DNA of 64,000 bases from Oscillospiraceae bacterium (GTDB lineage Bacteria > Bacillota > Clostridia > Oscillospirales > Oscillospiraceae), in the NCBI GenBank assembly GCA_021202845.1, contig JAJQCF010000031.1, positions 1-64,000 of the forward strand. Direction: 5' to 3'. Below the pieces are notes generated by a model. It did not search any database. It was not told the DNA's origin and worked only from the letters and a program-made list of their open reading frames with translations. Both the position numbers and the translations under genes were made by a program. The number at the start of each line of letters is the position of its first letter. Position 1 is the stretch's first letter. This document shows positions 7,542 through 9,125 of this stretch, in pieces.

Positions 7542-9125
7542 TCAGTCCCTGTCCAGCTGGAACACCGACGCGGCGGCGGTGAGCAGGGTGGAGGCGGCGG
7601 AGACGGCGTTTTGCAGAGCGCCGACCGTCACGTCGGCGGGGTCGGCAATGCCGCCGGAGAGCATATCCTCGTAGCGCCCCGTTTCCGCGTTGTAGCCCTT
7701 GGCGCCGCCGGAGGCCAGTATGCGCGCGGCGGCCTCCGCGCCGTCCGCACCGGCGTTCGCGGCAATGCAGCGCGCGGGAGAGCACAGCGCGGCGGCGAGA
7801 ATGGCAGCGCCGGTGCGCTCGTCGCCCTTCAATCCCGCGGCATAGCGCTTCACGGCGGGTATGGCCTTGATGTACGCCGTGCCGCCGCCGGGGACGATGC
7901 CGCTCTTGACCGCGGCGGAGGCGGAGTTCAGCGCGCTGTCAATGCGCTGCTTGCGCTCCTTCATCTCCGTCTCCGTGGCTCCGCCAACGCTTATTTCCAC
8001 AATGCCGGAGGCGAGATGCTCCAGACGGCGGCGGCAGCGAGCCTTGACCTCGTCATACTCGGTGTTTTCAATGCGGCGGTTGAGCTCGTCTATCTTGAGC
8101 GCTATCGCGTGAGCGTCGCCGCGCCCGCCGACTATAACGGTGCGGTCCGCGCTGACGGTCACGCTGTCTGCAATGCCGAGCATGGCGGTGGTGGCGCTCT
8201 CCAAGTCATAGCCGAGGTAGGAGGTGATGAATTTGCCGCCCGTGACAAGCGCCGTGTCCTCCATAAGGTCGTCCTGCTCGTCGCCCGGCTCCGGCGTCCT
8301 CACGGCAACGGATTCCACCACGCCCTGCATACGGTTCATCACCAGCGTTGTCAGCGCCTCGCCCTTCACGTCGCCCGCCATTATCAGCACGGGGCGCTCC
8401 TCGGGCTCGTTGATGATGTCCTCCAGCAGCGCGATTATTTCCTGAATGCTTTCAATTTCGCGGTCGGTGACGAGTATATAAGGGTTCTGGTATGTTATTT
8501 CCAGCTCGCCCTGCTTGAGATACGTGGGGTGGATAACGCCGCAGGGGAGGTTCATGCCCTCGCTGACGTTCACCTCGGTTTCCAGCTTCGCGCCCTCGGT
8601 GACGTTGACAACGCCGCCCGCGCCCGCTTTTTCCAGCGCCTCGCTGACCAGACGGCCGATTTCAGGGTCGCCGGAGGAAACGGAGGCCACCTGACGCACG
8701 GCCTCCTGCGCGCTGACGGGCAGGGCGCAGGCGCGAAGCTCTGCGCAGGCGGTCTCGCAGGCTCCGGCAATGCCCTTGCGCAGCAGCAGCGGGTTGGCGC
8801 CGGCGGAGATGTTTTTCAGCCCCTCGCGCATAATGCTGCGCGCCAGCACGACGGCGGTCGTCGCGCCGTCGCCGACCGCGGCCTCGGTCTTGGAAGCAGC
8901 CTCGCGTATTATGTCCGCGCCCATGTTCTCAAAGTGGTTCGGGAGCACCGTTTCCGGCGCTATGCCCGCCCCGCTGCCGGCAACGGTGACTTTTCTTGTG
9001 CCCTGAGCGAGCACGGCGTTGCGTCCGGCAGGCCCCAGTGTAATGCTCACCGCGTCCGCTAACTTGTCCACGCCGGTCATCAGCCCCTTAAGAGCCTCGT
9101 CGCCGAGCTTGATGTTTTTAGTCAT
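7542..9125 (-). CDS. GroEL-like chaperonin paralog lacking catalytic aspartates
   Basis: A 527-aa Hsp60-family protein, alignable end to end with E. coli GroEL by eye: [44 protein letters not shown]. The ATP-site Asp87 equivalent (GDG) is kept, but the two aspartates required for hydrolysis are both serine: KDG (Asp52) reads GSG, and VEDAL (Asp398) reads IDSAL. The C-terminal GGM-rich tail is missing and no groES is adjacent. Start chosen at the ATG at 9125 after AAAAGGAGAACCCGAT; the frame is open further upstream without support. Probably a specialised paralog; the housekeeping groESL would lie elsewhere. Confidence 0.88.

Follow-up and report, generated by a model that had tools for sequence, protein, structure and literature searches.

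A second GroEL with both hydrolysis aspartates replaced by serine in an Oscillospiraceae bacterium

GroEL is normally treated as a machine obliged to hydrolyse ATP, and two acidic residues, Asp52 and Asp398, are needed for splitting the nucleotide. The gamma-phosphate is contacted by D52, G53, T89, T90 and D398, while D87 is the Mg ligand (PMC8440773). The D398A mutant binds ATP normally and, at ~3% ATPase, remains able to encapsulate protein and fold it under GroES (PMC3326522). A double mutant altered at D52 was crystallised with GroES as an ATP-filled football (PMC5941174; mutant printed as D52A/D358A). Among natural proteins, chlamydial GroEL2 and GroEL3 are described as changed in the ATP-binding/hydrolysis and GroES-binding regions (PMC1892554, PMC5904260). 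Other extra GroELs are tied to particular enzymes. The gbu cluster of E. timonensis, one of the clostridial clusters with GroEL-like proteins, needs a native GroES/GroEL-like pair at 37 C (PMC10653785), and MmoG is a GroEL-like protein encoded in sMMO operons (PMC9324122).

Here we describe P0001, a maintained but strongly altered second chaperonin in which both hydrolysis aspartates are replaced. Its gene lies in the 64,000-nucleotide stretch of contig JAJQCF010000031.1 that was analysed as a whole (the window).

The P0001 gene, its neighbourhood and its genome

The gene and the elements around it are the following.

7542..9125, minus strand: P0001, divergent GroEL/Cpn60 paralog, 527 aa (Pfam and NCBIfam matches)
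9134..9140, minus strand: Shine-Dalgarno-like AAAGGAG, 8 nt before the ATG at 9125 (sequence)
9190..9195, minus strand: perfect -10-like TATAAT, a promoter candidate for P0001 on weak evidence (-35 only weak; unreported by the consensus scan)
5945..7510, minus strand: DUF3298 lipoprotein-like gene, 521 aa, starting 31 bp past the P0001 stop (profile match)
5892..5924, minus strand: terminator-like 14-pair hairpin with a T run, just 3' of the lipoprotein gene (terminator scan)

The P0001 frame runs from the ATG at 9125 to a stop that ends at 7542. It is intact over 527 codons, with no internal stop or frameshift that would mark a pseudogene, and the chance of such a stop-free frame in random sequence of the same composition is ~7e-7. 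The codon-position G+C (0.67/0.48/0.82) matches that of the neighbouring genes, so by this measure P0001 is not a contaminant. A longer reading of 610 aa, from an in-frame ATG upstream (to 9374), is disfavoured by homology and by the Shine-Dalgarno sequence, both of which point to 9125. No match to the CIRCE heat-shock operator is present in the window with up to 3 mismatches allowed. A 261-aa ORF (window 9306-10091) that is divergent from P0001 has no Pfam, NCBIfam or PHROG match.

The terminator scan returned 6 sites versus 5.2 expected in shuffles; the hairpin at 5892..5924 has the longest stem, and no site was reported between P0001 and the lipoprotein gene. The two genes are likely to form a two-gene transcript, judging by their arrangement. 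Relatives of the lipoprotein gene are only weak, with about 21-34% identity over parts. The surrounding genes are housekeeping: a spoIIGA-like gene (named by its position beside sigE), sigE, PPi-phosphofructokinase, aldolase, PHP and Suf-like genes. No phage or transposon genes were seen near P0001. Elsewhere in the window, a THF riboswitch (Rfam RF01831, 76.8 bits, 28932-29031) is located upstream of an ORF at 29094.

P0001 matches Pfam PF00118 (Cpn60_TCP1) with 213.6 bits (cut-off 34.3) and NCBIfam NF009487 with 522 bits (cut-off 352). Against the GroEL equivalog TIGR02348 it scores 515.8 bits, below the curated cut-off of 582.1 that delimits canonical GroEL. The AlphaFold model (pLDDT 88.1) has a complete Cpn60 fold that superposes on GroEL-ADP (4ki8) with a VIA Z of 48.2 and an rmsd of 2.3 A over 522 residues. 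It contains the intra-ring sheet elements of GroEL, namely the N-terminal strand, the stem-loop region and the C-terminal strand. By homology and predicted fold, P0001 is a group I chaperonin (Cpn60). The model is in a relaxed state, but so is that of the control, the genome's own canonical GroEL modelled with the same alignment, and we therefore do not take relaxation to mean that T-state bridges are lost.

At 2.24 Mb in 37 contigs, the genome is 99% complete with 0% contamination and contains exactly two Cpn60 genes. The original prediction had noted that P0001 lacks a groES neighbour. The sole groES of the genome is on contig C23, directly before the canonical groEL, and the two constitute the one canonical pair. 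In the canonical GroEL, every catalytic residue is present and the tail reads GGGMDGMY. Its identity to the GroELs of sister genera reaches 82%, versus 45% to P0001.

No ortholog of P0001 was found when 84,980 species genomes were scanned with six 8-residue patterns; the best match there has 45% identity, and the matches read have canonical catalytic sites. None was present in overlapping samples drawn from the family (400 genomes), the order (394), the class (371) and the phylum (378), altogether more than a thousand genomes of the phylum. These are partial samples of genomes, with few candidates scored in each and the genus represented by one genome. The best relative in them reached 457 bits, versus 1103 bits for P0001 against itself. 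Phage, plasmid and viral collections likewise held no ortholog. A mobile origin was considered and rejected, as phage and plasmid records yield ordinary GroELs only, with up to ~45% identity. In the phylogenetic tree, the P0001 end branch carries 3 to 5 changes per column and is too long to place: neither a position as sister to its own canonical GroEL (p-AU 0.30) nor one within the family (0.52) is rejected. We infer that P0001 arose by an old duplication or acquisition.

Nucleotide site, charge network and binding faces

P0001 was aligned with E. coli K-12 GroEL and 108 GroELs from the same family, the order and beyond. The three codons that define the catalytic site are located as follows.

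8973..8975, minus strand: codon 51, Ser where E. coli GroEL has Asp52; AGSGA replaces TNDGV (alignment)
8868..8870, minus strand: codon 86, Asp; the Mg-binding Asp87 of GroEL is kept, motif VGDGA (alignment)
7935..7937, minus strand: codon 397, Ser where E. coli GroEL has Asp398; IDSAL replaces IEDAL (alignment)

Indels before the tail are few: the initial Met, 1-residue deletions near 153 and 210, a 2-residue insertion near 242 and one residue near 434. None is located near 52, 87 or 398. GroEL K51-D52-G53 becomes G-S-G and E397-D398-A399 becomes D-S-A, while D87-G88 is kept. Neither of the lost sites has an Asp or Glu; the Asp of IDSAL occupies the E397 position. The broader alignment thus reproduces what had been read by hand against E. 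coli GroEL in the original prediction, namely serines at 52 and 398, a retained Asp87 and key regions free of gaps. Of the other GroELs with a residue at position 52, 101 of 106 have Asp; at position 398 the count is 105 of 107. Chance is therefore no issue for the double Ser, both positions being near-universal.

The rest of the nucleotide site is largely preserved. T30, L31, G32, P33, G53, D87, G88, T90, T91 and S151 are kept, as are G414-G416, I454, Y478, N479, A480, I493 and D495. T50, D52, T89 and D398 are lost, and residue 51 is a Gly. Since the nucleotide and Mg positions are mostly kept and D52 and D398 are lost, binding of ATP or ADP is plausible and hydrolysis unlikely. The loss of T89 may weaken ATP binding itself. 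The second site of the football double mutant we take to be D398, not the printed D358. On that assumption, the E. coli laboratory mutants (D398A and the D52/D398 football, 3WVL) resemble P0001 in lacking Asp at the same catalytic positions and keeping D87. Unlike P0001, they retain the remaining charges, the GroES fit and the GGM tail. The C terminus of P0001 (...[10 protein letters not shown]) is without this Gly-Met-rich tail, as had been predicted.

The changes extend well beyond the active site. Among 139 columns that are at least 95% conserved, P0001 deviates at 40; next in order come a GroEL from a viral contig, which deviates at 38, and a further two second GroELs from the family, at 30 and 27. 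The viral protein (IMG/VR contig, L084) is 36% identical to P0001 and has also lost both partners of the E409-R501 salt bridge, with D52, D87 and D398 kept. At the 90% level (205 columns), P0001 differs at 77 positions (about 38%), distributed unevenly among residue classes. Charged columns are changed in 32 of 52 cases (62%), versus 29% of the other near-invariant residues (odds ratio 3.9, p 5e-5), Gly/Pro in 5 of 43 and hydrophobic ones in 28 of 79. The canonical GroEL of the same genome has none of the 52 charged columns changed. A fold that is retained around a dismantled switch would look like this, with Gly/Pro kept and charges lost.

Several salt bridges of GroEL are affected. Both partners are changed in the equatorial-apical bridge D83-K327 (PMC3326522, PMC2664929) and in E409-R501 (PMC2741606). 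R197 of the R197-E386 bridge is a Cys, while E386, K80, D155 and R395 are kept. E408K occurs together with K498D, a charge swap within what is presumably another salt-bridge pair of GroEL. Partners agree in 5 of 5 pairs, with a random probability of ~0.03, and three pairs have both partners changed (~0.18); the pairs were chosen by hand, and both values, like the paired change itself, are suggestive only. By the alignment, P0001 has lost a large part of the conserved charges through which ATP is coupled to domain movement.

On the apical domain, the hydrophobic groove formed by helices H and I is kept in character (I234, L237, L259, V263, M264). The segment 199-204 reads V-I-H-P-T-Y in P0001 versus Y-L-T-P-Y-M in GroEL, and GFGDRRK becomes EPGDEQD. 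The exchanges Y203 to T, Y199 to V, R197 to C and E255 to K are also located on this face. These four exchanges may weaken the binding of GroES or clients. At the ring-ring face, R452 and the acidic residue 461 are kept, Val464 is replaced by Glu and position 434, which varies among canonical GroELs as well, is a Lys. These two changes, along with R13L and P47V, could impair assembly, and a single ring is possible. The prediction of an ATP-binding, hydrolysis-poor chaperonin fits the residue pattern, but describes only a part of the change: with the allosteric salt-bridge network and part of the apical GroES/client face altered too, it is doubtful that P0001 switches normally in response to ATP, even should ATP bind.

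Comparison with other second GroELs

Like chlamydial GroEL2 and GroEL3, P0001 is a stand-alone paralog with no groES alongside. It falls outside both chlamydial families, with 222 bits against GroEL3_Chlamy and 168 bits against GroEL2_Chlamy (cut-off 600 each; NF038369 / NF038370).

A parallel is found in another genome of the same family (G144), where a second GroEL (L114, 1488-3062) has Tyr at D52 and Gly at D398. It lacks the GGM tail and a groES neighbour, and shows the same preferential loss of charged residues (25 of 52 changed), as P0001 does. Its flanking genes are different, encoding LuxR-type regulators and a short-chain dehydrogenase (SDR), and with 41% identity it is no nearer to P0001 than any GroEL. 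By these comparisons, it is probably an independent case. A third genome of the family (G076) encodes a divergent GroEL paralog with both Asp kept (L117, 1465-3147). The small gene directly after it (1043-1534) matches only the trigger-factor C-terminal domain, and the neighbours at L117 and L145 of this genome include LuxR and ketopantoate-hydroxymethyltransferase-like (PanB-like) genes. It is possible that the GroEL and the trigger-factor-C-like gene constitute a small specialised chaperone module.

Within the same order, a clade in family f13 comprises further second GroELs (L146:5715-7337, L147:5224-6840, L110, L111, L113, L115 and L116). In 4 of the 5 that were fetched, D52 is replaced by Glu or Ala, and one has Asn at 398. 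Their tails lack GGM, ending for example in VIDPxDEAWLR. In the two loci that were read more widely (L146 and L147), the neighbours encode a BCCT carnitine/betaine transporter, a thioesterase and a CoA-transferase. Going by these neighbours, the f13 proteins are reminiscent of the gbu-linked groEL-like genes. P0001 differs from the f13 proteins, with 40-42% identity and a rank of last or nearly last against them, and differs from the gbu-cluster GroELs in having no carnitine or gamma-butyrobetaine genes adjacent. Altered ATPase sites in extra GroELs are known in Chlamydiae (PMC1892554) and, on the alignments presented here, arise repeatedly in this order.

Possible roles of P0001

We propose that P0001 is a functional, fast-evolving second chaperonin that binds ATP, is hydrolysis-dead or nearly so, and holds its clients, and we give this an even chance of being correct. 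P0001 would fold and assemble into a ring of the Cpn60 type, whose contact with a second ring may be weak. It would still bind ATP or ADP but, with ATP hydrolysis very slow or absent, would hold a client on its apical face instead of cycling. Alternatively, the hold could be a long-lived closed state, if the only GroES of the cell can still bind. P0001 would serve one or few clients, leaving bulk folding to the canonical GroESL; as a client, the lipoprotein precursor whose gene begins 31 bp downstream is no more than a candidate. The proposal draws on the intact frame with its normal codon-position G+C, the predicted fold, the Gly/Pro core, the mostly kept ATP pocket, the kept groove, and the presence of one canonical groES-groEL for housekeeping. 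It also draws on the behaviour of the D398A and D52 mutants, and specialised GroEL-like proteins have precedent (PMC10653785, PMC9324122).

A chaperonin as changed as P0001 may have left protein folding altogether, its scaffold being reused for a non-folding task without ATP cycling or GroES. The extreme divergence of the end branch, the dismantled charge network, the missing GGM tail and the absence of an adjacent groES would all suit such moonlighting. The nucleotide pocket and the groove helices are, however, better kept than this shift requires, and we consider it rather unlikely. P0001 could instead act on the canonical GroEL, co-assembling with it as a regulatory subunit that, lacking hydrolysis, tunes the ring or slows it down. 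The two genes share a genome and the intra-ring sheet strands are present in the model, but the two proteins are only 45% identical, many charged positions at or near the subunit contacts are changed (R197C, E255K, R284E, K286D) and P0001 is unlinked to groESL. Such mixed rings appear unlikely. A bolder variant of holding makes P0001 a naturally switch-less, single-ring holdase without an ATP cycle, dedicated to the co-transcribed exported lipoprotein, with several such conversions in the order. It builds on the loss of D83-K327 and E409-R501 and the charge swap at E408-K498, with fold and client groove kept, and is distinctly improbable as a whole.

Decay of a duplicate into a pseudogene with no present function would account for the lack of an ortholog in the sampled genomes and for the many lost invariant residues. 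A branch of this length without selection would have gathered stops and frameshifts. The frame is intact, the ribosome-binding site good, the codon-position G+C normal and 38 of the 43 Gly/Pro core sites unchanged, which makes decay very unlikely. Least probable of all is that P0001 remains an active ATPase chaperonin whose catalysis has passed to other residues. D87, D495 and the glycine-rich loops are kept, but no acidic residue is at or aligned to 52 or 398, and T89 is lost too. As for the Asp at the E397 position, it adjoins the lost one within a helix that aligns without gaps, and would point in a different direction.

By homology, P0001 adds a natural Ser/Ser case to the known altered GroEL duplicates of other bacteria. 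Paralogs like it would simply be annotated as GroEL. A natural GroEL paralog without both catalytic aspartates would test, outside laboratory mutants, how much of a chaperone's work can be done with no hydrolysis. Extra GroELs of one order, some of them encoded beside specialised metabolic genes, have lost the same positions repeatedly, which suggests a testable route from a general folding machine to a specialised helper.
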